Shown here: positions 1 through 39,641 of the stretch, in pieces
How the letters are laid out: each line of letters starts with the position of its first letter
Position numbering within the stretch: position 1 is the stretch's first letter
Assembly (NCBI GenBank): GCA_963556495.2
Contig: OY747713.1
Span: 50,317,328 to 50,381,327 of the forward strand
Length of the DNA stretch: 64,000 bases
Direction of reading: 5' to 3'
Source of the DNA: Valencia hispanica
Taxonomy: Eukaryota; Chordata; Actinopteri; Cyprinodontiformes; Valenciidae
Made by a program: the position numbers and the translations under genes
The notes under the pieces: model-generated
Told to the model about the DNA's origin: nothing
Seen by the model: only the letters and a program-made list of their open reading frames with translations
Database searches by the model: none

Positions 1-230
1 GTGAGGGCTGGGGTCGGGCCCTGGGTCCTGGAGCCGGATCTCCTGCCCCTCTCCCTCTGTCCTGTGAGCAGCAGCAGCAGGCCCTGGGTGAGGGCTGGGG
101 TCGGGCCCTGGGTCCTGGAGCTGGCCTCAAGCTCTCCTCCCTTCTGCCTGTGAGCAGCAGCAGGCCCTGGGTGAGGGCTGGGGTCGGGCCCTGGGTCCTG
201 GAGCTAGCCCAGACCGTGTGTGGTGCAGGA
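1..230 (+). repeat. End of an 80-bp-type minisatellite (previous macrosatellite unit)
   Basis: Roughly three copies of a unit running from GTGAGGGCTGGGGTCGGGC through CCTGTGAGCAGCAG. It is a diverged form of the array at 7400-8150, and the sequence after it (GGAGCGAGGAAAGAGATGCG) corresponds to the transition at 8150-8215. It therefore marks the left-hand macrosatellite unit. Confidence 0.8.
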
Positions 231-3200
231 GCGAGGAAAGAGATGCGAAAAAAATCCTAAGTGTCAGCCCCTCCTCTTACCAGAGGCACCAGATGCGGAA
301 AAATGACTAAGTGTCAGCCCCTCGCCTTACCAGAGGCACCAGATGCGGAAAATATCCTAAGTGTCAGCCCCTCGCCTAACCAGAGGCACCAGATGCGGAA
401 AATATCCTAAGTGTCAGCCCCCTGCCTGAAGGGGAGGCACGGGCGGCCCCATACCCGGGAAGAGGCCCGCTTCCCGGGTAAAGACAGCTAGCCTCAGCCC
501 CTCGCCTTACCAGAGGCACCAGATGCGGAAAAATGACTAAGTGTCAGCCCCTCGCCTTACCAGAGGCACCAGAAGCGGAAAAATGACTAAGTGTCAGCCC
601 CTCGCCTTACCAGAGGCACCAGATGCGGAAAAATGACTAAGTGTCAGCCCCAGCCTGGAGGGGAGGCTCGGGGTTCCCATGCCCAGGAAGAGGCCCCGTC
701 CCTGGGTAAAAAGAGTCAGCCACAGCCCCTCGCCTTACCAGAGGCACCAGATGCGAAAAAATGACTAAGTGTCAGCCCTTCGCCTTACCAGAGGCACCAG
801 ATGCGGAAAAATGACTAAGTGTCAGCCCCAGCCTGGGGGGGAGGCTCGGGGTTCCCATGCCCAGGAAGAGGCCCCGTCCCTGGGTAAAAAGAGTCAGCCA
901 CAGCCCCTCGCCTTACCAGAGGCACCAGATGCGAAAAAATGACTAAGTGTCAGCCACTCGCCTTACCAGAGGCACCAGAAGCGAAAAAATGACTAAGTGT
1001 CAGCCCCTCGCCTTACCAGAGGCACCAGAAGCGGAAAAATGACTAAGTGTCAGCCCCTCGCCTTACCAGTTGCACCAGAAGCGGAAAAATGACTAAGTGT
1101 CAGCCACTCGCCTTACCAGAGGCACCAGATGCGAAAAAATGACTAAGTGTCAGCCCCTCGCCTTACCAGAGGCACCAGAAGCGGAAAAATGACTAAGTGT
1201 CAGCCCCTCGCCTTACCAGTTGCACCAGAAGCGGAAAAAAGACTAAGTGTCAGCCCCAGCCTGGAGGGGAGGCTCGGGGTTCCCATGCCCAGGAAGAGGC
1301 CCCGTCCCTGGGTAAAAAGAGTCAGCCACAGCCCCTCGCCTTACCAGAGGCGCCAGATGCGAAAAAACGACTAAGTGTCGGCCCGCTGCCTTATCAGAGG
1401 CACCAGATGCATAAAAACAACTAAGTGTCGGCTCGCTGCCTTACCAGAGGCACCAGATGCGTAAAAACGACTAAGTGTCGGCCCGCTGCCTTACCAGAGG
1501 CACGAACTGAGCGTATGGTTCTATACTGCGTAGCATGGGTTGCCCATTGGACATGGTCTCTCATGGTAGTCGCCAGAAGCCCAGTCGAGAAAAACACCTC
1601 CCGCAGGATAGTAGGAAGGTGTTTTTGGACCCAGCCCGGCCGGTTCCATGCCCGGGAAGATGCTTGGTTCCCGGGTAAAAAGAACCAGCCTAAGTCCCTT
1701 GTCTTTCCAGTCTCACCGGATGCGTGAAAATGTCTAAGTGTCGGCCCCAGGCTGTGGGGATCCGCAGGGTTTACATGCCCAGGAAGAAGCCCGTTCCTGG
1801 GTAAAAAGAGCGAGACTCAGCCCCTCGCCTTACCAGAGGCACCGGATGCGGAAAAACGACTAAGTGTCAGCCCCAGCCTGGGGGGGAGGCTCGGGGTTCC
1901 CATGCCCAGGAAGAGGCCCCGTCCCTGGGTAAAAAGAGTCAGCCACAGCCCCTCGCCTTACCAGAGGCACCAGATGCGAAAAAATGACTAAGTGTCAGCC
2001 ACTCGCCTTACCAGAGGCACCAGAAGCGGAAAAATGACTAAGTGTCAGCCACTCGCCTTACCAGAGGCACCGGATGCGGAAAAATGACTAAGTGTCAGCC
2101 ACTCGCCTTACCAGAGGCACCGGATGCGGAAAAAAGACTAAGTGTCAGCCCCAGCCTGGAGGGGAGGCTCGGGGTTCCCATGCCCAGGAAGAGGCCCCGT
2201 CCCTGGGTAAAAAGAGTCAGCCACAGCCCCTCGCCTTACCAGAGGCGCCAGATGCGAAAAAACGACTAAGTGTCGGCCCGCTGCCTTACCAGAGGCACGA
2301 ACTGAGCGTATGGTTCTATACTGCGTAGCATGGGTTGCCCATTGGACATGGTCTCTCATGGTAGTCGCCAGAAGCCCAGTCGAGAAAAACACCTCCCGCA
2401 GGATAGTAGGAAGGTGTTTTTGGACCCAGCCCGGCCGGTTCCATGCCCGGGAAGATGCTTGGTTCCCGGGTAAAAAGAACCAGCCTAAGTCCCTTGTCTT
2501 TCCAGTCTCACCGGATGCGTGAAAATGACTAAGTGTTGGCCCCAGGCTGTGGGGATCCGCAGGGTTTACATGCCCAGGAAGAAGCCCGTTCCTGGGTAAA
2601 AAGAGCGAGACTCAGCCCCTCGCCTTACCAGAGGCACCGGATGCGGAAAAAAGACTAAGTGTCAGCCCCAGCCTGGGGGGGAGGCTCGGGGTTCCCATGC
2701 CCAGGAAGAGGCCCCGTCCCTGGGTAAAAAGAGTCAGCCACAGCCCCTCGCCTTACCAGAGGCACCAGATGCGAAAAAATGACTAAGTGTCAGCCACTCG
2801 CCTTACCAGAGGCACCAGAAGCGGAAAAATGACTAAGTGTCAGCCCCTCGCCTTACCAGAGGCACCAGAAGCGGAAAAATGACTAAGTGTCAGCCCCTCG
2901 CCTTACCAGAGGCACCGGATGCGGAAAAATGACTAAGTGTCAGCCACTCGCCTTACCAGAGGCACCGGATGCGGAAAAAAGACTAAGTGTCAGCCCCAGC
3001 CTGGAGGGGAGGCTCGGGGTTCCCATGCCCAGGAAGAGGCCCCGTCCCTGGGTAAAAAGAGTCAGCCACAGCCCCTCGCCTTACCAGAGGCGCCAGATGC
3101 GAAAAAACGACTAAGTGTCGGCCCGCTGCCTTACCAGAGGCACGAACTGAGCGTATGGTTCTATACTGCGTAGCATGGGTTGCCCATTGGACATGGTCTC

Positions 3201-3860
3201 TCATGGTAGTCGCCAGAAGCCCAGTCGAGAAAAACACCTCCCGCAGGATAGTAGGAAGGTGTTTTTGGACCCAGCCCGGCCGGTTCCATGCCCGGGAAGA
3301 TGCTTGGTTCCCGGGTAAAAAGAACCAGCCTAAGTCCCTTGTCTTTCCAGTCTCACCGGATGCGTGAAAATGACTAAGTGTCGGCCCCAGGCTGTGGGGA
3401 TCCGCAGGGTTTACATGCCCAGGAAGAAGCCCGTTCCTGGGTAAAAAGAGCGAGACTCAGCCCCTCGCCTTACCAGAGGCACCGGATGCGGAAAAACGAC
3501 TAAGTGTCAGCCCCAGCCTGGGGGGGAGGCTCGGGGTTCCCATGCCCAGGAAGAGGCCCCATCCCTGGGTAAAAAGAGTCAGCCACAGCCCCTCGCCTTA
3601 CCAGAGGCGCCAGATGCGGAAAAATGACTGTCAGCCCCTCGCCTTACCAGAGGCACCAGAAGCGGAAAAATGACTAAGTGTCGGCTCGCTGCCTTACCAG
3701 AGGCACCAGATGCGTAAAAACGACTAAGTGTCGGCCCGCTGCCTTACCAGAGGCACGAACTGAGCGTATGGTTCTATACTGCGTAGCATGGGTTGCCCAT
3801 TGGACATGGTCTCTCATGGTGGTCGCCAGGAGCCCAGTCGAGAAAAACACCTCCCGCAGG
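231..3860 (+). repeat. 50-bp satellite array with 845-bp higher-order repeat, unit 1
   Basis: The basic unit is 50 bp (CTCGCCTTACCAGAGGCACC, then AGATGCGGAAAAATGACTAA, then GTGTCAGCCC). It is interspersed with about 128-bp variants carrying a CCCAGGAAG...CCCTGGG inverted repeat, and with a 106-bp module starting CACGAACTGAGCG. That module sits at 1501, 2296, 3141 and 3753, spacings of 795, 845 and 612 bp. The first differs from 845 by exactly one 50-bp unit, so this is a higher-order array that grows and shrinks in 50-bp steps. ORFs read through it only because the unit lacks stops in some frames. Confidence 0.9.
1501..1610 (+). repeat. Dispersed 106-bp module of the satellite (representative copy)
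   Basis: Starts CACGAACTGAGCGTATGG and ends GAAAAACACCTCCCGCAGG. Other copies start near 2296, 3141, 3753, 7225, 9218, 10314, 10854, 11699 and 12572. Copies at 9218 and 10314 begin CACGCTTCGAGCG. It is always entered from the 50-bp unit and followed by one of several tails, so it behaves as a junction module of the higher-order repeat. I recognise no RNA gene or coding content in it. Confidence 0.8.
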
Positions 3861-3958
3861 TTTATGATGTTCTTTTTCACACAACGTCTTAAAAAAGGAG
3901 CGAAAAGATCGATATGGTCATGATTGTGGAGGCTTTTTGTCCAGCAGCCCTGGAGCTA
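3861..3958 (+). repeat. 98-bp spacer of macrosatellite unit 1
   Basis: Begins TTTATGATGTTC and contains GATCGATATGGTCATGATTG. An identical copy lies at 12679-12776. It separates the 50-bp satellite from the 85-bp minisatellite and is the best single-copy anchor for measuring the 8,818-bp period. Confidence 0.85.
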
Positions 3959-3960
3959 TT

Positions 3961-4576
3961 CTGCCAATGGCAGGCGTTTGTCGGTCGGTCCTGCCAATGG
4001 CAGGCGTTTGTCGGTCAGTCCTGTCAATGGCAGGCCTCGGTCGGGCTGTCAATGGCAGACCTCGGTCGGTCGGTCGGTCGGTCCTGTCAATGGCAGACCC
4101 TTGTCGGTCGGTCCTGTCAATGGCAGGCCTCGGTCGGGCTGTCAATGGCAGACCTCGGTCGGTCGGTCCTGTCAATGGCAGACCCTTGTCGGTCGGTCCT
4201 GTCAATGGCAGGCCTCGGTCGGGCTGTCAATGGCAGACCTCGGTCGGTCGGTCCTGTCAATGGCAGACCCTTGTCGGTCGGTCCTGTCAATGGCAGGCCT
4301 CGGTCGGGCTGTCAATGGCAGACCTCGGTCGGTCGGTCCTGTCAATGGCAGACCCTTGTCGGTCGGTCCTGTCAATGGCAGGCCTCGGTCGGGCTGTCAA
4401 TGGCAGACCTCGGTCGGTCGGTCCTGTCAATGGCAGACCCTTGTCGGTCGGTCCTGTCAATGGCAGGCCTCGGTCGGGCTGTCAATGGCAGACCTCGGTC
4501 GGTCGGTCCTGTCAATGGCAGACCCTTGTCGGTCGGTCCTGTCAATGGCAGGCCTCGGTCGGGCTGTCAATGGCAG
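3961..4576 (+). repeat. 85-bp minisatellite with CTGnCAnTGnCAG dyads, unit 1
   Basis: About seven copies of an 85-bp unit, itself three related subrepeats of 26-30 bp, each starting CTGTCAATGGCAG and ending in GGTCGG runs. The first copies read CTGCCAATGGCAG, a perfect 6-bp-arm palindrome around one base. The array lies 0.5 kb upstream of the recombinase start, and isolated relatives of the core (for example TGACAATGGCAC near 4730) continue toward the gene. This arrangement suits a protein-binding or promoter array, but that is inference. ORFs through it in several frames are repeat artefacts. Confidence 0.9.
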
Positions 4577-5098
4577 AACTCTGACACTTCCCGCACATGA
4601 ACGTAACACATTTTCACTGCGGTGAATTGTGTGACAATGTCCGCAAACTCCATTGGAAGTGTGTGCCACTGACAGGACTTTGGGTTAAGCTGTATTATCC
4701 CGTCTTCTCGGCTGTGACAGTGGCAGCAGCTGACAATGGCACACAGCTGCTCCACATCAAGCCTCAATCAAGGGAGTTTATCGTTGGCTGTCCTTGTCAG
4801 ATGGCTGCAGCAACTTGTCGGTGTCAGCTCGGTCTCTTTTGTCTTCGGTTCTGCGGTTCGGAACGAGGGGGTTCGGGTCGAAGCCCACCTGTTCCTTTCC
4901 CCTAATTGAGGCAGAGCGGTGCCTGCCGGTGAACGTCTTTTGTCGGTGGCAGGCTTTCCTTGTCCGTGGCAGGTTGGTGGACTTTCTGTTCGGTTCTGGT
5001 GGTGGGGTAGAGGGGGTCTGGGCCAAAGCCCACCCGGTTGACAGGTGGTTGGTAAAGTGGAACAAATGTTGTCTTTTTCCCCCTCCTCCAAGGAAACC
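4577..5098 (+). promoter_or_regulatory. Presumed promoter and 5' UTR of the recombinase gene
   Basis: A 114-bp spacer (4577-4690, identical to 13451-13564) is followed by single-copy sequence up to the start codon. It contains degenerate copies of the upstream minisatellite core (GTCGGTGGCAGG, GTCCGTGGCAGG) and several C/T-rich runs just before the ATG. I see no convincing TATA box. The role as promoter is inferred only from position. Confidence 0.45.
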
Positions 5099-7014
5099 AT
5101 GAACCCAGGAAGCAAGGCTCGGTGCTGTCCCCTTTGCAACAACAGCTTCGCCTCATTGCCAAGCCACCTGAAAAGATCACACTTTGTTAACAATCTGGAG
5201 GAAAGAAGACTTTTGCTCAACCTCTCCTCAGGCCGGGTCAATGTAAGAGACTACCCGTGTAATGTGAATGGGTGTTTGTACAAGAATTCCCGCTTTGACT
5301 ACCACATGCGACGCAGCCATCAGGAGCTTTCCATTGAGCAGAGGGAGCGCAACATCACTGCTGCGAAAAAATCAAGAACCATCTCCCTGCTCCGGAGCCT
5401 CAGGGAAAGCAACCCCAATCCTCCCCTTGTCTCACAGCTTGATATTGGGGTTGAACCCTGTCTTGAACAAGAGCTCTCCTCAGCTCTAGCACCACTGTCG
5501 GATCCAGGGCCCGCGGTTGTCCTCTCTCCATGTCCGGTGTCTCTTTCAGGGGAGGCAGCAGTCGGAGTGACCCTCCCTTCAGCTCCGGCACCACCGCGGG
5601 GTGCAGGGCGAGCAGCGGCCGGGGTTGGCCTCTCCCCAGTGGTGGTGCTGGAGAGACTGGACCCCTATGCGTTGGTTCCAGCAGGAGCAGCAAGAACAAC
5701 AGCAGCAGCAGCAGCCGGAGTGGACCTGTCCGAGGACAGACCCACAGACCCGGGGACCAGGGGCAACGTTTTCCCTAAATCCATCAGTAGGTGACTTGGA
5801 GATTTGATGTGTCGTACGGTATGGTATGGTTTGGTATGGTGCTTCAGGTGACCATGCTTTTCTTGTCTGGTTGTTTTCACAGCAAAGTACTTGGGAGCTT
5901 ACCAGGCTTACATCAAAGGTTTCAACCCGTCACGAATGAAGTTGAAAAACTCATGCTCACAGCTTTCGAGGGTGAAGGAGTTCCTCTCCTACATGGCAGA
6001 GGGAGCCCAGCAAACACACGACTGGCTCTTCCTAGACGATGTTCACCGGATCCATGGGTAATCCTCGCTCGCCTGATGTGCAGGTCTGCTGTGAAAATGC
6101 TTGGATGTCAGGTTCTTTTTATGCATGTTTGCAGATGGGCTTCGCACCTGCTCGGGAATGGAAGGAAGCTGTCCACAGTCCACAACTATCTGGGTCAACT
6201 CCAAAAGTTCCTTCGGTACCTGACTGACACACCGCCGTTCCAGTGCAGGCTCTCCAAGAGACAGATCTTTTCAGTGCGTCGTACCATCCAGAACTGTCTT
6301 AAGGAGATCCGTGGAGGCCTTCTCACCTACCAGATCGAGCTGAAGGCCAAGAAATCAGAGCGGGCAATTTCCCTGCAGACCCTCACCAGATGTCGGGAGC
6401 GTGCCAGCAGAAAGATCCCTGAGCTTCTGGAGGAAATCGCCAAACAGCCCTCGCGCCGCTTAACTTATCTTTTCTTTGGTTACTTTGCTGCGTATCTCTC
6501 GTGCATTTATGGCCACAGAAAGGGGGTCCTTGTAAACATGACTGTGGAAGAGGTTGCGGCGGCCAGGGAGAACTGCAAGTCCCCCGAGCAAGGTTACCTG
6601 ATTAACGTGCATGAGCACAAGACAAAAGGATCATACGGAACTGCCCAGATCTTCCTGAAGCCGGAAGAGTTCGACTGGCTGGATCGATGGTTGAAGATCC
6701 GGGCCGGTCTCCGTCCCCCAACAAACCAGGTCCTTTGCCACCTTTGGAGGTCTGTCGGCCACAGCATTGATCAGTACTTACGGGTGGCATGGGGAGAGAT
6801 GGGTTTGCCAGGGAGACCTACTTTCACGGACATCAGGAGCGCAGTGGCAACCCATGTGAAGAACCATAACTCTGTGAGACAGCGCGAGCGAATGTCTGAA
6901 TTCATGTGTCACAGCCCTGGCACAGCTGACCGGTTCTATGTTTTCCACCTGGACGTAGATCAAGCAAGGGAAATCAGACAACACTTTGACCGACTCTTGG
7001 TGTTGGAGGGGTAG
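5099..7014 (+). CDS. Zinc-finger tyrosine recombinase (Crypton-like), three exons, intact
   Basis: Predicted exons 5099-5786, 5883-6057 and 6135-7014 join in frame to 580 codons plus TAG. Introns are short (96 and 77 bp) with GTAGGT/TTTCACAG and GTAATC/TTTGCAG sites. The start at 5099 is chosen because the first finger follows at once; an ATG at 5045 would add 18 residues. Finger 1 uses C10, C13, H23, H28; finger 2 uses C54, C59, H69, H74. A Pro/Ala/Ser-rich linker (about 100-225) leads to an N-terminal core-binding domain (about 230-330) and the catalytic domain. Candidate active-site residues are R416 (GHRKG), R522 (TDIRS), H547 (MCHSPGT) and Y556 (DRFY). The usual His of the HxxR box is Thr519. 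Family knowledge predicts strand cutting through a 3'-phosphotyrosine without DDE chemistry. There is no reverse transcriptase beside it, which argues against DIRS/Ngaro and for a Crypton-type element. Splice sites need RNA support. Confidence 0.85.
5787..5882 (+). other. Predicted intron 1 of the recombinase gene
   Basis: Donor GTAGGT at 5787, pyrimidine-rich tract and acceptor TTTCACAG ending at 5882. The alternative donor GTGACT at 5791 would shift exon 2 out of the frame that encodes the recognisable core-binding domain, so 5787 is preferred. Confidence 0.7.
6058..6134 (+). other. Predicted intron 2 of the recombinase gene
   Basis: Donor GTAATC at 6058 and acceptor TTTGCAG ending at 6134. 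Splicing restores the frame between the core-binding segment and the long third exon. Confidence 0.7.
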
Positions 7015-7042
7015 TAAAGTAGACTATGGACTGACTTGTTGA

Positions 7043-7048
7043 AATAAA
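7043..7048 (+). terminator. Polyadenylation signal of the recombinase gene
   Basis: AATAAA lies 29 bp after the TAG stop, and about 45 bp before the satellite sequence resumes. The transcription unit therefore appears complete and compact. Confidence 0.7.
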
Positions 7049-7090
7049 ATCAAAAACTTCCAACTAAATGTGTCTTGTGTAATGAAAAAA

Positions 7091-7345
7091 ATATTCTAAG
7101 TGTCGTTATCTGCCTTACCAGAGGCACCAGATGCGTAAAAATGACTAAGTGTCGGCCCGCTGCCTTACCAGAGGCACCAGATGCGTAAAAACGACTAAGT
7201 GTCGGCCCGCTGCCTTACCAGAGGCACGAACTGAGCGTATGGTTCTATACTGCGTAGCATGGGTTGCCCATTGGACATGGTCTCTCATGGTAGTCGCCAG
7301 GAGCCCAGTCGAGAAAAACACCTCCCGCAGGATAGTAAGAGCGAG
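7091..7345 (+). repeat. Short 50-bp satellite block after the recombinase gene
   Basis: About two 50-bp units and one 106-bp module (CACGAACTGAGCG at 7225) connect the recombinase 3' end to the 80-bp minisatellite. The gene is thus flanked on both sides by family satellite sequence. Confidence 0.85.
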
Positions 7346-7399
7346 TCTTTTAGGAGCGTGGCAAGGAAAAAAAGTCTAAGTCTTGGGAGTAAGGCCCGT

Positions 7400-8190
7400 T
7401 GCCCTGGAGCCGGATCCCCAAGTCCTCTCCCTCCGGCCTGTGAGCAGCATGCCCTGGGTGAGTCTTGGGGTCGGCTCCTGGGTCCTGGATCCAGCCTCGA
7501 GCTCCTCTCCCTCCGGCCTGTGAGCCGCATGCCCTGGGTGAGTCTTGGGGTCGGGTCCTGGGTCCTGGGTCCTGGATCCAGCCTCGAGCTCCTCTCCCTC
7601 CGGCCTGTGAGCAGCATGCCCTGGGTGAGTCTTGGGGTCGGGTCCTGTGTCCTGGATCCAGCCTCGAGCTCCTCTCCCTCCGGCCTGTGAGCAGCATGCC
7701 CTGGGTGAGTCTTGGGGTCGGGTCCTGGGTCCTGTATCCAGCCTCGAGCTCCTCTCCCTCCGGCCTGTGAGCAGCATGCCCTGGGTGAGTCTTGGGGTCG
7801 GGTCCTGGATCCTGTATCCAGCCTCGAGCTCCTCTCCCTTCGGCCTGTGAGCAGCATGCCCTGGGTGAGTCTTGGGGTCGGGTCCTGGGTCCTGGATCCA
7901 GCCTCGAGCTCCTCTCCCTCCGTCCTGTGAGCAGCATGCCCTGGGTGAGTCTCGGGGTCGGGTCCTGGGTCCTGGATCCAGCCTCGAGCTCCTCTCCCTC
8001 CGGCCTGTGAGCAGCATGCCCTGGGTGAGTCTCGGGGTCGGGTCCTGGGTCCTGGGTCCTGGATCCAGCCTCGAGCTCCTCTCCCTCCGGCCTGTGAGCA
8101 GCATGCCCTGGGTGAGTCTTGGGGTCGGGTTCTGGGTCCTGGAGCCAGGGCAGGCCGTGTCTGACGAAGGAGCAGGCTGGCTGGAGGCAC
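7400..8190 (+). repeat. 80-bp minisatellite (nine to ten copies)
   Basis: The unit runs from CAGCATGCCCTGGGTGAGTC through GGGTCCTGGATCCAGCCTCG to CTCCTCTCCCTCCGGCCTGT. A strict 80-bp period is visible from 7552 on; some units carry one extra GGGTCCT. The long ORFs on both strands across it (273-306 residues on the minus strand) simply reflect a repeat without stops in several frames. Confidence 0.9.
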
Positions 8191-8214
8191 GGAGCAAGGC
8201 AGAGGAACCCAGAT

Positions 8215-11200
8215 GCGTAAAAACGACTAAGTGTCGGCCCCAGCCTGGGGGGGAGGCTCGGGGTTCCCATGCCCAGGCAGAGGCCCCTTCCCTGGGTAAA
8301 AAGAGTCAGCCACAGCCCCTCGCCTTACCAGAGGCACCAGATGCGAAAAAATGACTAAGTGTCAGCCCCTCGCCTTACCAGAGGCACCAGAAGCGGAAAA
8401 ATGACTAAGTGTCAGCCACTCGCCTTACCAGAGGCACCAGATGCGAAAAAATGACTAAGTGTCAGCCACTCGCCTTACCAGAGGCACCAGATGCGGAAAA
8501 ATGACTAAGTGTCAGCCACTCGCCTTACCAGAGGCACCAGATGCGAAAAAAATCCTAAGTGTCAGCCCCTCGCCTTACCAGAGGCACCAGATGCGGAAAA
8601 ATGACTAAGTGTCAGCCCCTCGCCTTACCAGAGGCACCAGATGCGGAAAAACGACTAAGTGTCAGCCACTCGCCTTACCAGAGGCACCAGATGCGGAAAA
8701 ATGACTAAGTGTCAGCCCCTTTCCTTACCAGAGGCACCAGATGCGGAAAAACGACTAAGTGTCAGCCCCAGCCTGGGGGGGAGGCTCGGGTTTCCCATGC
8801 CCAGGAAGAGGCCCCGTCCCTGGGTAAAAAGAGTCAGCCACAGCCCCTCGCCTTACCAGAGGCACCAGATGCGGAAAAACGACTAAGTGTCAGCCCCAGC
8901 CTGGGGGGGAGGCTCGGGGTTCCCATGCCCAGGAAGAGGCCCCGTCCCTGGGTAAAAAGAGTCAGCCACAGCCCCTCGCCTTACCAGAGGCACCAGATGC
9001 GGAAAAACGACTAAGTGTCAGCCCCAGCCTGGGGGGGAGGCTCGGGGTTCCCATGCCCAGGAAGAGGCCCCGTCCCTGGGTAAAAAGAGTCAGCCACAGC
9101 CCCTCGCCTTACCAGAGGCACCAGATGCGGAAAAATGACTAAGTGTCAGCCACTCGCCTTACCAGAGGCACCAGAAGCGGAAAAATGACTAAGTGTCAGC
9201 CACTCGCCTTACCAGAGGCACGCTTCGAGCGTATGGTTCTATACTGCGTAGCATGGGTTGCCCATTGGACATGGTCTCTCATGGTAGTCGCCAGGAGCCC
9301 AGTCGAGAAAAACACCTCCGGCAGGTTGGTAGGAGCGTGTGCCGGGACCGAGACCCTGCCTGGAGGGGAAGGCACTGGGGGGTCCCATGCCCAGGAAGAG
9401 GCCCCGTCCCTGGGCAAAAAGAGCGAGACTCAGCCCCTCGCCTTACCAGAGGCACCGGATGCGGAAAAAAGACTAAGTGTCAGCCCCAGCCTGGGGGGGA
9501 GGCTCGGGGTTCCCATGCCCAGGAAGAGGCCCCGTCCCTGGGTAAAAAGAGTCAGCCACAGCCCCTCGCCTTACCAGAGGCACCGGATGCGGAAAAAAGA
9601 CTAAGTGTCAGCCCCAGCCTGGGGGGGAGGCTCGGGGTTCCCATGCCCAGGAAGAGGCCCCGTCCCTGGGTAAAAAGAGTCAGCCACAGCCCCTCGCCTT
9701 ACCAGAGGCACCAGATGCGGAAAAACGACTAAGTGTCAGCCCCAGCCTGGGGGGGAGGCTCGGGGTTCCCATGCCCAGGAAGAGGCCCCGTCCCTGGGTA
9801 AAAAGAGTCAGCCACAGCCCCTCGCCTTACCAGAGGCACCAGATGCGAAAAAATGACTAAGTGTCAGCCCCTCGCCTTACCAGAGGCACCAGAAGCGGAA
9901 AAATGACTAAGTGTCAGCCACTCGCCTTACCAGAGGCACCAGATGCGAAAAAAATCCTAAGTGTCAGCCCCTCGCCTTACCAGAGGCACCAGATGCGGAA
10001 AAATGACTCAGTGTCAGCCCCTCGCCTTACCAGAGGCACCAGATGCGGAAAAATGACTAAGTGTCAGCCACTCGCCTTACCAGAGGCACCAGATGCGGAA
10101 AAATGACTAAGTGTCAGCCCCTTTCCTTACCAGAGGCACCAGATGCGGAAAAACGACTAAGTGTCAGCCCCAGCCTGGGGGGGAGGCTCGGGGTTCCCAT
10201 GCCCAGGAAGAGGCCCCGTCCCTGGGTAAAAAGAGTCAGCCACAGCCCCTCGCCTTACCAGAGGCACCAGATGCGGAAAAATGACTAAGTGTCAGCCACT
10301 CGCCTTACCAGAGGCACGCTTCGAGCGTATGGTTCTATACTGCGTAGCATGGGTTTCCCATTGGACATGGTCTCTCATGGTAGTCGCCAGGAGCCCAGTC
10401 GAGAAAAACACCTCCGGCAGGTTGGTAGGAGCGTGTGCCGGGACCCAGACCCTGCCTGGAGGGGAGGCACGGGGGGGTCCCATGCCCAGGAAGAGGCCCC
10501 GTCCCTGGGCAAAAAGAGCGAGACTCAGCCCCTCGCCTTACCAGAGGCACCAGATGCGGAAAAACGACTAAGTGTCAGCCCCAGCCTGGGGGGGAGGCCC
10601 GGGGTTCCCATGCCCAGGAAGAGGCCCCGTCCCTGGGCAAAAAGAGCGAGACTCAGCCCCTCGCCTTACCAGAGGCACCGGATGCGGAAAAAAGACTAAG
10701 TGTCAGCCCCAGCCTGGGGGGGAGGCGCGGGGTTCGCACGCCCAGGAAGAGGCCCCATCCCTGGGTAAAAAGAGTCAGCCACAGCCCCTCGCCTTACCAG
10801 AGGCGCCAGATGCGAAAAAACGACTAAGTGTCGGCCCGCTGCCTTACCAGAGGCACGAACTGAGCGTATGGTTCTATACTGCGTAGCATGGGTTGCCCAT
10901 TGGACATGGTCTCTCATGGTAGTCGCCAGAAGCCCAGTCGAGAAAAACACCTCCCGCAGGATAGTAGGAAGGTGTTTTTGGACCCAGCCCGGCCGGTTCC
11001 ATGCCCGGGAAGATGCTTGGTTCCCGGGTAAAAAGAACCAGCCTAAGTCCCTTGTCTTTCCAGTCTCACCGGATGCGTGAAAATGACTAAGTGTCGGCCC
11101 CAGGCTGTGGGGATCCGCAGGGTTTACATGCCCAGGAAGAAGCCCGTTCCTGGGTAAAAAGAGCGAGACTCAGCCCCTCGCCTTACCAGAGGCACCGGAT

Positions 11201-12678
11201 GCGGAAAAAAGACTAAGTGTCAGCCCCAGCCTGGGGGGGAGGCTCGGGGTTCCCATGCCCAGGAAGAGGCCCCGTCCCTGGGTAAAAAGAGTCAGCCACA
11301 GCCCCTCGCCTTACCAGAGGCACCAGATGCGAAAAAATGACTAAGTGTCAGCCACTCGCCTTACCAGAGGCACCAGAAGCGAAAAAATGACTAAGTGTCA
11401 GCCCCTCGCCTTACCAGAGGCACCAGAAGCGGAAAAATGACTAAGTGTCAGCCACTCGCCTTACCAGAGGCACCGGATGCGGAAAAATGACTAAGTGTCA
11501 GCCACTCGCCTTACCAGAGGCACCGGATGCGGAAAAAAGACTAAGTGTCAGCCCCAGCCTGGAGGGGAGGCTCGGGGTTCCCATGCCCAGGAAGAGGCCC
11601 CGTCCCTGGGTAAAAAGAGTCAGCCACAGCCCCTCGCCTTACCAGAGGCGCCAGATGCGAAAAAACTACTAAGTGTCGGCCCGCTGCCTTACCAGAGGCA
11701 CGAACTGAGCGTATGGTTCTATACTGCGTAGCATGGGTTGCCCATTGGACATGGTCTCTCATGGTAGTCGCCAGAAGCCCAGTCGAGAAAAACACCTCCC
11801 GCAGGATAGTAGGAAGGTGTTTTTGGACCCAGCCCGGCCGGTTCCATGCCCGGGAAGATGCTTGGTTCCCGGGTAAAAAGAACCAGCCTAAGTCCCTTGT
11901 CTTTCCAGTCTCACCGGATGCGTGAAAATGACTAAGTGTTGGCCCCAGGCTGTGGGGATCCGCAGGGTTTACATGCCCAGGAAGAAGCCCGTTCCTGGGT
12001 AAAAAGAGCGAGACTCAGCCCCTCGCCTTACCAGAGGCACCGGATGCGGAAAAATGACTAAGTGTCAGCCACTCGCCTTACCAGAGGCACCAGATGCGGA
12101 AAAACGACTAAGTGTCGGCCCCAGCCTGGGGGGGAGGCTCGGGGTTCCCATGCCCAGGAAGAGGCCCCGTCCCTGGGTAAAAAGAGTCAGCCACAGCCCC
12201 TCGCCTTACCAGAGGCACCAGATGCGGAAAAACGACTAAGTGTCAGCCCCAGCCTGGGGGGGAGGCTCGGGGTTCCCATGCCCAGGAAGAGGCCCCGTCC
12301 CTGGGTAAAAAGAGTCAGCCACAGCCCCTCGCCTTACCAGAGGCACCAGATGCGGAAAAACGACTAAGTGTCAGCCCCAGCCTGGGGGGGAGGCTCGGGG
12401 TTCCCATGCCCAGGAAGAGGCCCCATCCCTGGGTAAAAAGAGTCAGCCACAGCCCCTCGCCTTACCAGAGGCGCCAGATGCGGAAAAATGACTAAGTGTC
12501 AGCCCCTCGCCTTACCAGAGGCACCAGAAGCGGAAAAATGACTAAGTGTCGGCCCGCTGCCTTACCAGAGGCACGAACTGAGCGTATGGTTCTATACTGC
12601 GTAGCATGGGTTGCCCATTGGACATGGTCTCTCATGGTGGTCGCCAGGAGCCCAGTCGAGAAAAACACCTCCCGCAGG
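8215..12678 (+). repeat. 50-bp satellite array with higher-order repeats, unit 2
   Basis: Same building blocks as 231-3860: 50-bp units, the approximately 128-bp inverted-repeat variant (multiplied between 8760-9120 and 9480-9840) and the 106-bp module. Spacing of the last variants is 845 bp (10854 to 11699) then 873 bp. Copies at 9218 and 10314 carry the CACGCTTCGAGCG variant and a different tail (GTTGGTAGGAGCGTGTGCC), absent from the first array, so the two arrays have diverged in order while their units stay very similar. Confidence 0.9.
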
Positions 12679-12776
12679 TTTATGATGTTCTTTTTCACAC
12701 AACGTCTTAAAAAAGGAGCGAAAAGATCGATATGGTCATGATTGTGGAGGCTTTTTGTCCAGCAGCCCTGGAGCTA
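12679..12776 (+). repeat. 98-bp spacer of macrosatellite unit 2
   Basis: Identical by eye to 3861-3958. It defines the 8,818-bp period. Confidence 0.85.
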
Positions 12777-12778
12777 TT

Positions 12779-13450
12779 CTGCCAATGGCAGGCGTTTGTC
12801 GGTCGGTCCTGCCAATGGCAGGCGTTTGTCGGTCGGTCCTGCCAATGGCAGGCGTTTGTCGGTCAGTCCTGTCAATGGCAGACCCTTGTCGGTCGGTCCT
12901 GTCAATGGCAGGCCTCGCTCGGGCTGTCAATGGCAGACCTCGGTCGGTCGGTCGGTCCTGTCAATGGCAGACCCTTGTCGGTCGGTCCTGTCAATGGCAG
13001 GCCTCGGTCGGGCTGTCAATGGCAGACCTCGGTCGGTCGGTCCTGTCAATGGCAGACCCTTGTCGGTCGGTCCTGTCAATGGCAGGCCTCGGTCGGGCTG
13101 TCAATGGCAGACCTCGGTCGGTCGGTCCTGTCAATGGCAGACCCTTGTCGGTCGGTCCTGTCAATGGCAGGCCTCGGTCGGGCTGTCAATGGCAGACCTT
13201 GGTCGGTCGGTCCTGTCAATGGCAGACCCTTGTCGGTCGGTCCTGTCAATGGCAGGCCTCGGTCGGGCTGTCAATGGCAGACCTCGGTCGGTCGGTCCTG
13301 TCAATGGCAGACCCTTGTCGGTCGGTCCTGTCAATGGCAGGCCTCGGTCGGGCTGTCAATGGCAGACCTCGGTCGGTCGGTCCTGTCAATGGCAGACCCT
13401 TGTCGGTCGGTCCTGTCAATGGCAGGCCTCGGTCGGGCTGTCAATGGCAG
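12779..13450 (+). repeat. 85-bp minisatellite with CTGnCAnTGnCAG dyads, unit 2
   Basis: Same 85-bp unit as 3961-4576, with one extra perfect CTGCCAATGGCAG copy at the left and about 55 bp more in total. Differences from unit 1 are copy number plus isolated substitutions, for example CCTCGCTCGGG and CCTTGGTCGG. Confidence 0.9.
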
Positions 13451-13564
13451 AACTCTGACACTTCCCGCACATGAACGTAACACATTTTCACTGCGGTGAA
13501 TTGTGTGACAATGTCCGCAAACTCCATTGGAAGTGTGTGCCACTGACAGGACTTTGGGTTAAGC
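13451..13564 (+). repeat. 114-bp spacer of unit 2, interrupted by a retroviral LTR
   Basis: Identical to 4577-4690. Sequence identity stops at TTAAGC (13564), where the LTR begins with TGTT. In unit 1 the same point continues TGTATTATCCCG into the recombinase promoter. Unit 1 therefore preserves the empty target site. Confidence 0.9.
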
Positions 13565-14073
13565 TGTTAAAATCTGTAACTGTGTTCTGTTGTTTCTTAT
13601 CGCTCCTGTTGTGGTAAAATGATGAATGTCCAAAATGTTCTTACCAAAAATGCTACGTGAAGGAATTTGTGTGTTTATTCAGAGAAGGAAGGCTTGGGTC
13701 ACTGACACGATAAATTATAAACTTGGCTAGCAGAACATGTTCTCTCAGAGAGCGTGTTATTATCAAAGAAAGCATCTGGATTATGTTAGGCCGCACTGGC
13801 GCCAATATGACGCACGAGCTAGGTATAAAATCTGTGTGTTAATAATAGAAGAGGGAGTCTAGTCTGGGGCTTGCCGGAGAGTCTTGCTGGGGTATTTGAA
13901 GACGACAGAACTGTATGTCATCAATGCTTTGTCCTGCTCAGAGAAGGTATGTAAACTAATAAACCGGCAGAGGCTGTATTCCAGAACTGAAGTTGTGTTG
14001 GCTTTGTTTGTTTGTTAAACTGGACTCAATATCTTTGCATGTTAACCTGGTCCAACATTCAAAATAACCAACA
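13565..14073 (+). repeat. 5' LTR of the endogenous retrovirus (509 bp)
   Basis: Starts TGTTAAAATC and ends AACCAACA, giving TGTT/AACA terminal inverted repeats. It contains TATAAAA at 13824-13830 and AATAAA at 13958-13963 in the order expected for U3-R-U5. The left edge coincides exactly with the break in homology to macrosatellite unit 1. Confidence 0.8.
13824..13963 (+). promoter_or_regulatory. LTR TATA box and polyadenylation signal
   Basis: TATAAAA at 13824 and AATAAA at 13958 lie 128 bp apart, which fits a retroviral R region. Function is inferred from motif and position. Confidence 0.6.
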
Positions 14074-17258: not shown

Positions 17259-18545
17259 TTTAAAACACATACCCAAAATTAACTTAAAGCTGTTCTTGAA
17301 CCATTTTGAGTAGAGACATGGCTGGGGTCTATTTGGAAAGCAAACACTCTAAAATTTATCCCAGAACTGTGTTAATATCTCTGAGTGCTATTGTTACCAA
17401 GCAATGTTAATTTTAATACCCCAAAAAATAATTTTATTTGTGTCCGAATATTTATTTGATATAAATACATGCTGTAAAAATGGCTTTAAAAAGAGGTGGT
17501 GACCTAAAACACACTGTGGGTCTAAAGTCTGAAGTATTACCTTCATCCACACCAAATTTGACAGCAATAAACAAAAAATGAATATTCTGCACACATTTTT
17601 ATAATTACAGGTCAAAGGTGGTCAAAAGTGTGCCATATGCGCCATCTCCTGGGTAAGTGCCGTAGTCCTCACTGAATCAAAAATATCATCAGAATCATAA
17701 CTTCATCTTACCATATAAAGCTCCACGGCTTCCTTCAATGTTGTATTTTGATCATAAAGGGTGTTTGGACACGGTGCTGAAACAATATGTTACTGGTACG
17801 CACTGTGCGTAATCTCTTCATGAATAAGACATTTTACGCACGTCATATACAATGGCTGCGAACAAGTCCGCCCGGTCATGTTATATATCTGCGTTTACAG
17901 CATTACATTGGCTATTCGATGCGTCAATCATCAGAGTTCTGGACCGCAATTGGTTCGAGTTACTTACCATAACGTGACTTTCCATCCATGCGCCATTGGT
18001 TGAAAATGTACCCTACGTAAGGAAAACACCGGATGAATTTTTTTTTTCCTTCTGGGCATGCTCAGTGACCTTTGTAGGCGGAAGTGGAAGCGAATGAATC
18101 GAAAACAAAGCCGTAAAGACTACAAAAATGGACAGACATTTCGGGAGCGCATTTCCACTGTTTGTTTTACATTTTTTATTGGTTTATCTGTTGTCCTGGT
18201 CTAATAACTTTATCGGAGGACTTTAATCGGACCCTTATTGATTTAAAAAGACCATTTTTGTTCGAAATGGATCGGTTTTGTCACGTTTATTGGACTACAA
18301 AGTGGTGAGTTCCATATTTTTATACCTCCATCAGGAGAACGTTTGTGTTGGCAAAAGCGCTCACTGTGTCTTCAGTTATGATTGTATCCTTAAACGCCAG
18401 GCATAATTGGAATCACAAGACTCTTAGCTTTCCAATTATATAAAACATGTATAGGTTCATAAAAGTTAGAAGTCAGAAAGTTGGTGGATTTAAACTAGGA
18501 AATGGGCTGAGCGCGCCCGCAGGCTCTCGGAACCCTAACGCCCTC
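17259..18545. other. Unclassified 1.3-kb insert inside gag
   Basis: Coding character of gag stops near 17258 and resumes near 18545 with the capsid. Between them lies noncoding sequence with a T-run, pieces such as GGGCATGCTCAGTGACC, and no long ORF. It is probably a non-autonomous element, but I could not find clear terminal repeats. Confidence 0.4.
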
Positions 18546-18565
18546 AAAGGTATGATGAAGGGGCT

Positions 18566-19285
18566 ATGTACACAAGTTTGGTAAAAGGCACTCGAATCCA
18601 ATACGTGCCTTGGCAGACCTTAGATTTGCAGGGACTCATCTCACGGCTGCCCTCGATGGGGCGATGGATAAAAGCATTTGAAAACGAAACTACAGGGCTG
18701 ATGCTAGCCCTGGGTGACATAAAATCAGTTTGGGCAAAAATTATTGGGACAGCTGCCATGGACGCAATGCTGACCAATGGTGGACACTGTTGGATGTTGG
18801 ATCCAGAAAACAACGGTGTGGCCTTTAATCCATACAGAAACCAGGTCTGGGAAATATTGAGAAAACAATACCCCACCCACATTGACCCATCTGCATTAAA
18901 AGGTGAGCCAATACTGGAAGGGGAAAATCCAGCCGCCTACATAGAGCGTCAGCTCAAAAGATGGCATGAAGAGACTGAAATGGACCCAAACACCAATCCT
19001 GTAACGACAACCTTGTTTCGATCAGCCTTGGTGACTGCCCTCCCAGACAAAGCCAGAGAGCAACTGGAAGGAGTCGTGGGACTACACTCAATGTCTCACG
19101 CACAGTTCCATGATCATGTTGTCCATGCTGTCGGGAAACACAGAAAAGAACAGTTAAAGGTTCAAGAAAATGAAAGAAATGCTCAACGCAAGCTGACCCA
19201 ACTCCACATTGCGGAGTTACAAGATAAGGCTAAAGCAAAAACGCAAGCGCCTGCAATGCAAACAGACACTGCCGTGACATCATAA
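18566..19285 (+). pseudogene. Gag capsid-like ORF (239 residues)
   Basis: The ORF has a capsid-type amino-terminal stretch (PWQTLDLQGLISRLP), a GRWIKAFE segment, and a carboxy-terminal helical region with FRSALVTALPDKAREQLE followed by a Lys/Glu/Gln-rich coiled tail. This pattern fits the capsid of gamma/epsilon-type retroviruses, which forms the core shell. It ends at TAA 19283-19285; coding similarity continues past the stop into the Pro-rich and zinc-knuckle segment, so the stop is probably a mutation. The true amino terminus is upstream and separated by the insert. Confidence 0.65.
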
Positions 19286-21735: not shown

Positions 21736-22665
21736 TACCCCGTCACAGAGTACATAGTGATAGGAAAACAAGGTGCAGCTATAAATGTGAAGCCAAACCC
21801 ATTCATTGAGAGATGGTACAATGTACCAGAATCTGCACCACACATAACTCTGTCAGTTAATGAAGGCTTTGAATCCAAAGCTTTGGGGCCAATGATGTTA
21901 ACAGCAAACCAGGCTCCATGGCAAACAACAGATAATCCTCTAATCTTTACGACTAAAGATTCAGCTATGATTAAAATCCTTTGCAAAACTGCTACACTTG
22001 CTAAACCACAAATAGTGTAGATCCCAAAGAAACAGGAAAAACAACAGTTTTGAAAATCCAAAACCCGCCAGGACACGTTGAAAAAGGACACGTTAGACCA
22101 TGTCCCAGAACAGCTTTGGTCAAAACAAGACACAGATGTAGGTCTGGTACAATCAGCCAGTCTAGTTGAAATACACCTAAAACAGAATTTCAGACTACCT
22201 AATCGTCCTCAATACCCAATGAAACCAGAAGCAGAACAAGGAGTGAGTGCAACACTTTATGGCCTACAAAAAGCAGGAGTCTTGAAAGAAACAAATAGTG
22301 TTTGTAATACGCTCATCTTTCCAGTCTTAAAAGCAGATGAGTCCAAGTATCGTTTGGTGCATGACTTAACTATCAACGCCATAATCGAAGATTGGCTTGC
22401 AGAAGACCCAAATCTGCATACATTACTCACAAATTTACTTCCTGATGCCAAATTTTTCACCATCATAGATCTGTGTTCGGCATTTTTTAGTATTCCTTTG
22501 GCAGAAGCCTCCCAGTACCTTTTTGCTTTTAGGCACAGAGGAAAACAATACACATACACAAGACTCCCACATGGATTTAAACACAGCCCTCGCGTGTTTA
22601 ATCAAATCCTTAAACAGGATCTTGAAGGGATTGACATCGAAGGGTACCTTAATACAGTATGTTGA
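21736..22665 (+). pseudogene. Retroviral pol: pre-RT region and reverse transcriptase, broken
   Basis: A 87-residue ORF (21757-22020) ends in TAG. A 195-residue ORF (22078-22665) then carries the reverse transcriptase fingers and palm with the catalytic block IIDLCSAFFSIPL and the LPHGFKHSP segment. This reading frame ends just before the active-site loop, which continues in another frame. The product would copy viral RNA into DNA; this copy cannot make a full enzyme. Fish gamma/epsilon-type pol is the closest family by eye. Confidence 0.75.
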
Positions 22666-32159: not shown

Positions 32160-33450
32160 AACAAAACAACCAAAGGCTAAAGTCCTGAGGCCTGCGACGA
32201 AGGAGCAGGAACTTGGGAGGCTGGCGACGAAGGAGCAGGAACCTGGGAGGCCAGCGATGAAGGAACAAGAACCTGGGAGGCCTGCAACGAGGAACCAGGA
32301 GACAAGGAGGCCTGCGACGAGGAACCAGGAGACGAGGAGGCCTGCGACGAGGAACCAGGAGACGAGGAGGCCTGCGACGAGGAACCAGGAAACGAGGAGG
32401 CCTGCGACGAGGAGGCGCTTCGACGAGGAGGCCTGCGACGAGGAACCTTGTGGCGTGGAGGCCTGTGGTGGAGAACCTTGTGTCTAGGTGGCCGGATGCA
32501 GAAAACCTTGTGTCTTGGGAACCGACTGCAGAGAACCTTGTGTCTTGGGAACCGACTGCAGAGAACCTTGTGGCTTGGGAACCGGCTGCAGAGATCCTTG
32601 TGGCTTGGGAACCGGCTACAGAGAACCTTTTGTCTTGGGAAATGACGACGACTAAGGGGACCTTGGTAGGACGCTGGGAACCCTCGAGAGGACGGAGTGG
32701 AAGACCCTCGAGAGGATGGAGTGGAGAACTCTCGGGGAGGAGTAGAAGACCCTTGGAGAGGGGTAGAGGAACCACAACGTGGCGTAGAGGACCCACGACG
32801 AGGTGTAGAAGACCCACGACGAGGCGTAGAAGACCCACGACGTGGCGCTGAAGACCCACAATGTGACGCTGAAGACCCAAGGCATTATGTCCCTCTGGAG
32901 ACCCTTGGCAGAGTCAGGAGCTAGAGGTGTGTCCTCCGGAACACCCCCTGCGTAATCAGAAGCTAGAGGCGTGTCTTCTGGAACACCCCCAGCGGAGTCA
33001 GGAACCAGAGGCGTGTTCTCCAGAACACCCTCTGCGAAGTCAGGAACCAGGGGCGTGTTCCCAAGAACACCCTCTGCGGAGTCAGGAACTAGAGGCGTGT
33101 CCTTTTGGACATCCTCAGTGGAGTCAGGAGCCAGAGGCGTGTCTTCTGGAACACCCCCTGCGGAGTCAGAAGCCAGAGACATGTTCTCCGGAAAACCCTC
33201 TGCAGAGTCAAGAGCCAGAGGAGTGTCTTCCGGAACACCCCCTGTGGAGTCAGGAACCAGAGGCGTGTTCTCTGGAACACCCCCTGCGGAGACGGAAGCC
33301 AGAGACATGTTCTCCGGAACACCCTCTGCAGAGTCAAGAGCCAGAGGCGTGTCTTCCGGAACACCCCCTATGGAGTTAGGAACCAGAGGTGTGTTCTCTG
33401 GAACACCCCCTACATAGTCAGAAGCCAGAGGCGTGTCCTTTCGTGCACTT
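32160..33450 (-). pseudogene. Repetitive minus-strand coding locus, part 2: nested minisatellites
   Basis: On the minus strand a 42-bp array (33440-32930) encodes a 14-residue unit of the type GVPEDTPLAPDSAE in about twelve copies. It is followed by a 21-bp array (32880-32760), a 30-bp array (32640-32480, CTTGTGTCTTGGGAACCG on plus) and another 30-bp array (32460-32190, encoding RRPPRLLVPR). All units are multiples of three, and ORFs of 355 and 245 residues cover them in two frames. A matching unit (TPLAPDST) occurs at 39670-39700, beyond a 6.2-kb insert. I do not recognise the protein; length polymorphism by slippage is expected. Confidence 0.55.
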
Positions 33451-33479
33451 AGGGACGTCTGGGACACTTGGCACATATT

Positions 33480-33990
33480 GAATGGGACGTTTAGGGTGGC
33501 ATGACCACTTTTTTCAAAAAATCGCCCCGGGGCCCGACAAGTCCGGGTCTCTTCCAGAAATTTGCCGGGCCCCAGATCTCGGCCCTCCCCGGTTTTCGGA
33601 TTTTTCGGGCCCTCGGGGACCGCGGGGCGAATTTTCGAAGTCGCCGTCAAACGTATGCCAAAGGGGTGATGTGACCAAAACGGCCACCGGGTCGGAAACA
33701 TATCCCAAATGTCCCACAACGGGAAAACGGGACACTTCGGCTATCAAACCCGCCCTTTGGCATACGGTGTAATGGGAAATGTCCGAAGCGTACCCCAAAG
33801 GGCCGCCCCAAAAGGCTAAATCGTCCCCCGAATGTCCCAGAATGGCCCGCGGGACACTTTGGATAGCCGTTTCCCATTACAAGGTATGCCAAAGGGTGGG
33901 ATTGATATCCGAAGTGTCCCACGTATCCCGAAGAACGCCCTAAAGGAAAGGGAAGTACCCCAAATGGATAAAACCGTAAAAGTTGCTTTT
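33480..33990. other. Left part of the motif block: scattered GGGACATTTGG relatives
   Basis: Contains motif relatives at, for example, 33841-33865 (GCGGGACACTTTGGATAG) and 33910-33930 (CCGAAGTGTCCCACG). Both orientations alternate. ORFs here change frame with no recognisable domain. Confidence 0.6.
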
Positions 33991-33999
33991 AGCATGGGT

Positions 34000-34500
34000 A
34001 AATGGTGTCAGAAAATGCCCCAGGGTACCAGACTTCCAGGGTGGTGTCCACAGTGTTTTTCAGCGCAGAAATGGGACCTCATACCTGGGTAAATATCAAA
34101 AATTCACCTCCACTTAACCAGAGGGGGAGCAAAGTGTTTTTTAGCCCAGGAATGGGACTTCATACCTGGTTAAATGTTGTGATAAATGCCCCTCCAGGGA
34201 ACCAGAGATCCATGGGGGAGCACAATGGTTTTTAGCCCATGAATGGGACCTCATACCTGGGTAAATGTTGTCATAAATTCACCTCCACTTAATCAGACAT
34301 CCAGAGGGGGAGCAAAGTGGTTTTTAGCCCAGAAATGGGACCTCATACCTGTGTAAATGTCATAAATTCACCTCCACTTAACCAGAGGTCCAGGGGGGAG
34401 CACAGTGGTTTTTAGCCCAGAAATGGGACCTCATACCTGGGTAAATGTCATAAATTCACCTCCACTTAACCAAAGATCCAGAGAGGGACCACAGTGATAT
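34000..34500 (+). repeat. Tandem repeat of about 85-110 bp with GCCCAGAAATGGGACC core
   Basis: Five to six imperfect copies of GTGGTTTTTAGCCCAGAAAT, GGGACCTCATACCTGGGTAA and CACCTCCACTTAACCAGAGG. Two further copies lie at 35335-35520. Order and wording resemble the inverted-repeat module of the macrosatellite at 1-13 kb (GCCCAGGAAG...CCTGGGTAAA...CTTACCAGAGG). Confidence 0.8.
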
Positions 34501-34829
34501 TTTACCCCAGAAACAGGACCTTCGGCCAAGGACAATTGGCATCAATTTCCTGGAGGGTCATTAGTGGATTCATTTACCCAGGCGAGAGGCCTCTACTCTG
34601 GGGTGAAACCACTGCTAAGTCCTGGATATGGAGGATCATTAGTGGCTTTATTTACCCAGGCTGGAGGAGACTTATCTGGGCTAGAACCACATGTGGTGCT
34701 CACTCGATCACATTTTGCTGTGCTGAACCACATATGATCCATTGTGTGCAGAATATGGCCTTTTGACCTTACAAATCACATTTATTCCCAAAATAAGGGA
34801 ATTTAGTGACAGTTGGAATGAAAATCTAT

Positions 34830-35245
34830 TCAGAAGAATTGATGCCAAATGTCCCGGGGGCCAGGGACATTTGGAATGAGTTTCTTTGAATGGGAGCGTA
34901 TTCCAAACGTCCCTGAAATCCCTAATTTGCCAGGGACAATCAGATTACATTTCCTAGAATGGGAGCGTATTCCAAACATCCCTTAAATCCCTAATTTGCC
35001 AGGGACAAACGGAATACATTTCCTAGAATGGGAGAGTATTCCAAACGTCCCTGAAATCCCTAATTTGCCAGGGACAATCGGAATACATTTCCTAGAATGG
35101 GAGCGTATTCCAAATGTCCCTGATATCCCTAATTTGCCAGGGACAATCGGAATACATTTCCTAGAATGGGAGTGTATTCCAAACTTCCCTGAAATCCTTA
35201 ATTTGCCAGCGACAATCGGCATACATTTCCTAGAATGGGACCACA
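34830..35245 (+). repeat. 69-bp tandem repeat with hairpin potential (five to six copies)
   Basis: TATTCC starts at 34899, 34968, 35037, 35106 and 35175, a strict 69-bp period. Each unit has TATTCCAAACGTCCCT facing AGGGACAATCGGAATA across an 18-bp loop, a 16-bp-arm imperfect hairpin. Confidence 0.9.
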
Positions 35246-39240: not shown

Positions 39241-39490
39241 GTCAGGTAGACAGTTTCCCAAACGTCCCAGGTGTTTCCCAAGGGGTTTAACATGAAACCA
39301 ATATCCCCCCCCCCCACAGGCCGGTAGACGGTTTCCCAAATGTCCCAGGTGTTCCCCAAAGGGTTTACATTTAACCAGCCGGTCGACGGTTTCCCAAACG
39401 TCCCAGGTGTTCCCCAAAGGGTTTACATTTAACCGGCCGGTCGAATGTTTCCAAAGGTCCCAGGTGTTCCCCAAGGGTTTACATGAAACC
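39240..39490 (+). repeat. Tandem repeat of about 60 bp (four copies)
   Basis: Units start at GGTAGACAGTTTCCCAAACG and similar (GGTCGACGGTTTCCCAAACG), and continue TCCCAGGTGTTCCCCAAAGG. A C-run sits in the first unit. The AAACGTCCC core is another relative of the block motif. Confidence 0.85.
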
Positions 39491-39641
39491 ACTGCCCCCC
39501 CCAAGAAAAAAACACCCTTACACCATATTCCCCAAATGGCCGAAGTGTTCCTCAAAAGTCCCCATTCATGTATGCTAAAGGGACGGCCTCGGGGACATTG
39601 AGGTGCATTTTGGGACATTGGCTATTACACTGAATGGGATT

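Follow-up and report, generated by a model that had tools for sequence, protein, structure and literature searches.

A tandem satellite array with an intact tyrosine recombinase gene in Valencia hispanica, probably a mobile element that multiplies head to tail

Satellites are usually viewed as passive products of copying errors. Coding macrosatellites such as D4Z4 with DUX4 and RS447 with USP17 hold an intact gene in each tandem kilobase unit, and McGurk and Barbash are said to have reported in 2018 that satellites can be born from the tandem insertion of transposons. According to the parts of PMC3212892 that deal with them, Cryptons encode a tyrosine recombinase with the catalytic tetrad R-H-R-Y, have been proposed to move as circles and carry no long terminal repeats (LTRs); for fungal and oomycete Cryptons short direct repeats are described there as likely recombination sites, and for animal ones no terminal repeats as having been found. 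Here we describe a stretch of 64,000 nucleotides from Valencia hispanica (C16:50317328-50381327, hereafter the window), whose positions 1-13564 are a tandem array of satellites around a gene for a tyrosine recombinase. Our analysis suggests that this array is probably a mobile element of tyrosine recombinase type, which is loaded with satellites and multiplies head to tail.

Along the array the order of modules recurs, which had been claimed from the letters alone and was borne out here. It begins with an 80-bp minisatellite (left type, S80-L) and a 50-bp satellite (S50) with modules of 128 and 339 bp; after a connector, the unique spacer of 98 bp and a 30/85-bp satellite, a leader precedes the gene. 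On the 3' side of the gene, S50 and connector return before the right-type minisatellite S80-R, and S50, connector, spacer and 30/85-bp satellite then recur up to a second leader, which stops at 13564. The window covers about 1.5 periods and one gene only.

The window's own genome (1.29 Gb in 29 contigs) was searched with a 240-base spacer probe. From it, 18 stretches of 10 kb at or adjoining probe matches were fetched, then nine more; the first 18 regions were picked before the types of ends were known, and one stretch (L011) is all N. In the window and the fetched stretches, the ends of the leader could be counted at 24 distinct places, and at every one the leader ends in ...GGGTTAAGC. Fifteen of these places are joints between units, all of which read GGGTTAAGC followed by TGTATTATCCC and then by the gene leader (C24 has seven, C20 has two, and the window, C8, C16 (L009), C19, C23 and C26 have one each). 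The other nine leave the element exactly after GGGTTAAGC and enter seven unrelated types of flank. An LTR-like flank is common to the end in the window and to C16:50298.1 kb (99.8% identical over 4,019 alignment columns), the ends on C8 and C26 are flanked by a satellite of about 190 bp, and those on C20, C15, C11 (two) and C18 by sequences matching none of the others. The array end which had been placed at 13564 is exact and falls on the same base as the other termini. As the end base is the same, the flanks are unrelated and the joint is constant, this end can be regarded as a real terminus, and the joint links it to the gene side.

The 190-bp satellite, which flanks the two arrays over 1-3766 of L018 (C8) and 1-2483 of L024 (C26), shares all or most of the core of this joint. 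In its monomers CACCAAGTTA.GC was counted 18 times on C8 and, on C26, 13 times; the two junctions lie at that position of the monomer, where the monomers of the two chromosomes read GTTA[A/T]GC; three C8 monomers read GTTAAGCTGT, the same as the unit joint. The C8 junction itself reads GTTAAGCTGTATTGAAATG, whereas the listed monomers have TGTTTTGAAATG or ATTTTTGAAATG, which is only suggestive of an element base beyond the core.

The spacer probe had at least 264 matches. At least 40 near-full-length copies (40 scored of 151 candidates, 97–100% identical) are clustered on 10 of the 29 contigs, namely C8, C11, C15, C16, C18, C19, C20, C23, C24 and C26, and the copy listing is an undercount because the second spacer of the window itself is not among the listed rows. 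Ten further full genes on 7 contigs are all open; two match that of the window throughout, seven deviate from it at the same two bases, and the last deviates at one other base, with one residue altered, which makes no more than 2 differences from the window in 1,916 bases. The mapping and gene check which the sequence-only reading had proposed therefore found many copies with intact genes, and the case of only two copies with the gene in one is excluded. Its macrosatellite with an 8.8-kb unit was right as to the tandem arrangement but too tidy. Tandem units longer than 1 kb do stand in arrays, as in a macrosatellite, but instead of one uniform unit at one or a few loci there are adjacent units of 7,473 and 7,568 bases on C20 and of 10,180 and 11,089 bases on C24, that is from 7.5 to 11 kb, and the copies are dispersed over at least 10 contigs. 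Listed copies also lie 20–24 kb apart, in stretches which may contain unscored copies or N runs.

Within the window, too, unique parts are constant and repeat numbers are not. Spacer and flank are identical at 223/223 bases between the two units (3743-3965 and 12561-12783), as had been stated for the spacers, and so are 124/124 bases at 4570-4693 and 13444-13567; an 845-bp higher-order repeat agrees at 841/845 positions (2624-3468 and 11182-12026). High identity spans roughly 500-4693 against 10.4-13.57 kb, with dips. In contrast, the S50 tract with its connectors measures 3,651 bases in one unit and 4,530 in the other, and the 30-bp repeat has 22 cores in the first and 24 in the second. The proposed period of 8,818 bp holds for one anchor, but another gives 8,874 and the ends of the 80-bp minisatellites (209 and 8148) are 7,939 apart. 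The connector occurs 10 times in 13.5 kb, and the segments after it differ. S80-R monomers are 94–100% identical among themselves and 80–87% identical to those of S80-L, monomer to monomer. Relatives of the 30-bp repeat in the leader reached a score of 69, against a maximum of 65 in 300 shuffles. A supposed S50 relic at the 3' end of the gene was rejected as weak, as 16 of 500 shuffles reach its score.

The gene can be modelled with three exons, two GT-AG introns and 580 codons, in agreement with the one complete spliced recombinase gene proposed for the unit. The two introns are supported by the relative P0001, a protein of 583 amino acids which is encoded without interruption in a contig of 1,923 bases, probably a spliced one, and which is 60% identical over the recombinase part. 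On the evidence of the predicted fold, the protein is a tyrosine recombinase with two zinc fingers, belonging to an unnamed teleost family. Foldseek and VIA-align place tyrosine recombinases first, with XerA, XerH, Cre and the Tn1549 integrase among the best structural matches (core-binding and catalytic fold); the Foldseek template modelling (TM) scores are modest, at 0.37–0.44 in the first seven rows, and the root-mean-square deviation is high. Type IB topoisomerases are listed as well, and so are some phage repressors which have this fold. The recombinase matches in Pfam all stay below the curated cut-offs, and a sequence search of solved structures returned just two weak, unrelated rows. 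The catalytic residues R, K, R, H and Y are all present (5/5) and are kept in most members of a 17-member alignment, which leaves out the four fragments P0006-P0009. The zinc fingers were recognised by eye in the window protein; among 20 relatives, many of which are fragments, their pattern was matched in three, namely P0001, P0010 (Xiphophorus) and P0014 (Scophthalmus). Relatives come from Nematolebias, Ataeniobius, Goodea, Girardinichthys and Cebidichthys, and further from Xiphophorus, Nothobranchius, Kryptolebias, Misgurnus, Scophthalmus, Pseudoliparis, Anabarilius, Liparis and Megalobrama; those with names are nearly all 'uncharacterized' or 'hypothetical', one standing under another gene's name. 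By the patterns used, no relative was found in viral contigs and prokaryote genomes.

Circle integration at a GTTAAGC-like site is the simplest account of these data because it accommodates the fixed terminus, the short shared core, the constant joint and the resident tyrosine recombinase together. The enzyme would excise a circle joined at GTTAAGC and recombine it with a site resembling GTTAAGC in another place, leaving no long target duplication. Inside an array, the end-to-end joint would itself be such a site, where circles could reinsert and lengthen the array, and homologous exchange among the many internal repeats would then alter and homogenise the units. That homologous exchange must also act follows from the varying unit lengths and from the 220-bp direct repeats which bracket the gene. 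The left end of the element would be TGTATTATCCC, and left ends would read flank, GTTAAGC-like core and TGTATT; genomic left ends would be occurrences of TGTATTATCCCGTCTT without preceding GGGTTAAGC, and a left end inside the 190-bp satellite would read CACCAAGTTA[A/T]GCTGTATTATCCC. We infer this mechanism from the structure of the arrays, and the interpretation gains strong indirect support. The earlier idea of a recombinase array which inserts itself has thereby received structural backing from the fixed terminus, the unrelated flanks, the joint repeating the terminus and the satellite sharing the core. We give about even chances to the more far-reaching view of a self-propagating satellite, whose own recombinase would excise circles and reinsert them at the core recreated at each joint, each insertion being a good next target, so that a transposon would have become gene-bearing arrays on many chromosomes, entering another satellite as well.

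Several observations weigh against a mobile element of this kind. None of the 13 neighbouring C26 monomers reads GTTAAGC, all having GTTATGC, and the shared core is therefore only partial in most monomers; after the core, AT stands instead of TG in 12 of 13 C26 and 7 of 18 C8 monomers. No left end was found in the fetched stretches that were scanned, whose left sides run into N, and an N run between flank and array at C16:50302128 means that some joins may be wrong. The right end can also be read as GGG followed by TTAA. As regards the enzyme, the box-II histidine is absent in 17 of 17 members, with T in 12; the window protein has T. Among the fragments left out of these counts, losses are visible by eye: the second R is replaced by Q in P0007, that stretch is missing from P0008, and P0006 is without the K. 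The box-II histidine (HxxR) is usual but not universal in tyrosine recombinases. In addition, the fold alone is no proof of activity, since the phage repressors MrpR and YopR share it. Finally, plain homologous recombination between the 220-bp direct repeats, which are 98% identical, could make circles and tandem copies.

The last point leads to the view that the array is an ordinary macrosatellite, shaped by unequal exchange, slippage and ectopic recombination only, with the recombinase gene as a passenger. The direct repeats around the gene, sub-repeat numbers which vary between units while the unique parts are identical, and adjacent units of 7.5 to 11 kb would all suit it, and parts of two reviews (PMC9659126, PMC12628747) describe satellites growing from mobile elements by such exchange. 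However, it leaves unexplained why one fixed end base stands beside seven unrelated flank types and why two copies enter another satellite at one position, and we consider it unlikely.

The same fixed ends in unrelated flanks speak against the view that a domesticated host gene stands here in tandem, comparable to ribosomal DNA or DUX4 arrays, and exchanges between chromosome regions. All full copies read hold an intact gene, its conservation extends to distant fishes, and the uninterrupted contig of P0001 would be expected of such a gene, but the relatives P0006, P0016 and P0018 look broken (by eye), as in a family of mobile elements, which makes this explanation quite improbable.

The GGG followed by TTAA at the right end is how piggyBac elements end, and a DDE-type, TTAA-target (piggyBac-like) element might have moved the unit with the recombinase as a passenger. 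Yet TTAA is followed by GC at all 24 places, GCTGTATT and not TTAACCC stands on the opposite side of the junction, and no second gene was recognised by eye in the open reading frame (ORF) listing of the array, Pfam having been applied to the recombinase ORFs only, so that this origin is very improbable. An assembly artefact, with haplotypes or collapsed repeats misjoined into arrays, could be suspected from the N runs in many arrays and from the right end and flank of the window recurring about 33 kb upstream at 99.8%, but is hardly credible given the identical reading of 15 internal junctions on 7 contigs, the different satellite numbers of the units and the ends in unrelated flanks.

Table 1. 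Positions in the window of the array modules, the recombinase gene and the adjoining flank
Feature	Position	Strand	Remark
80-bp minisatellite, left-type variant (S80-L)	1..209	+	diverged from the 7423-8148 copy
S50 with 128-bp and 339-bp modules and 845-bp higher-order repeat	233..3742	+	
Left 220-bp direct repeat bracketing the gene cassette (S50 and connector)	3641..3860	+	216/220 identical to 7112-7331
98-bp unique spacer	3861..3958	+	identical to 12679-12776
30/85-bp satellite, CTG[TC]CAATGGCAG core	3961..4581	+	22 copies
Right-terminal segment of the element, ending ...GACAGGACTTTGGGTTAAGC	4582..4690	+	element leaves exactly here at 9 places, including window 13564
Unit-to-unit junction, GTTAAGC followed by TGTATTATCC; proposed recombination core	4684..4700	+	one of 15 matching internal places
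Proposed left terminus of the element	4691	+	inferred
5' leader of the gene, holding degenerate relatives of the 30-bp repeat	4691..5098	+	
Exon 1: two zinc fingers C-x2/4-C-x9-H-x4-H and linker	5099..5786	+	in-frame ATG also at 5063
Exon 2: start of the core-binding domain	5883..6057	+	
Exon 3: remaining core-binding domain and catalytic domain (R, K, R, H, Y)	6135..7014	+	includes stop codon
AATAAA, likely polyadenylation signal	7043..7048	+	
Right 220-bp direct repeat bracketing the gene cassette	7112..7331	+	
80-bp minisatellite, right-type (S80-R)	7423..8148	+	
S50/128/339 satellite and connectors of the second unit	8149..12678	+	
Spacer, second copy	12679..12776	+	
30/85-bp satellite, second copy	12779..13455	+	24 cores
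Right end of the array	13456..13564	+	terminus same as 4690
LTR-like segment of a retrovirus-like element (TGTTAAAATC...CCAACA, by eye)	13565..14073	+	target or neighbour, outside the element

Within 3961-4581, the core variant CTGCCAATGGCAG of the 30-bp repeat forms a 6-1-6 inverted repeat (by eye) upstream of the gene and is a possible candidate for a protein-binding site. Outside the window, a 140-bp satellite without match in the window array lies upstream of S80-L, adjoining N runs (L028 3401-4260 and L030 4002-4527). Rfam and transfer RNA scans of the window found nothing.

An insertion of the retrovirus-like element at 13565 which would have cut the second unit was considered and dropped, because the other places with unrelated flanks end at the same base. 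No second LTR copy was found within the window. The element runs to about 23 kb, with a gag-like ORF at 18539-19282, recognised by eye and without a Pfam match, and a reverse transcriptase ORF (RVT_1) at 22054-22662, and is broken up by sequence resembling long interspersed nuclear elements. A second tandem-repeat region at 32187-35240 and 38525-39491, with periods of 30–180 bp, is GC-rich around 32–34 kb and 38–40 kb and has no blastn match to the array. A DDE_Tnp_4 transposase ORF, which we take to be Harbinger-like, lies at 60575-61264.

No description of such a recombinase-bearing array was found among the papers listed in searches of an open-access library, mostly without subscription papers. 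If our interpretation is true, an intact, recently spread recombinase gene and joints which repeat the insertion core would give this satellite an engine of its own. The circle step which has been proposed for Crypton-like elements of animals could then be tested directly, and the array could be a source of a vertebrate recombinase whose target core is defined.

DIRS and Ngaro retrotransposons likewise use a tyrosine recombinase, but no reverse transcriptase ORF was recognised by eye in 1-13564 of the window. The likeness to Cryptons (CryptonA, CryptonI, CryptonV and others) lies in the tyrosine recombinase as the enzyme and in the proposed circles. Of the ends of the element, the right one was seen with the core at 9 places. 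Of the Crypton tetrad R-H-R-Y, the window protein has R, R, Y and one H, the H of HxxR being replaced. In contrast to Cryptons, the array consists of adjacent head-to-tail units of 7.5–11 kb which are mostly layered satellites, and the gene has introns, two zinc fingers and no box-II histidine. The element would work like a Crypton and can be called Crypton-like, yet it is not classed as one, as the box-II histidine is missing and no left end was found in the stretches scanned. With satellites born from transposons it would share tandem insertion followed by unequal exchange, but here the unit still has an intact recombinase gene and the joint repeats the insertion core. Finally, like the coding macrosatellites it has tandem kilobase units with an intact gene in each, whereas here the gene is that of a recombinase, the copies are spread over at least 10 contigs and one fixed base forms the end of the arrays at unrelated sites.

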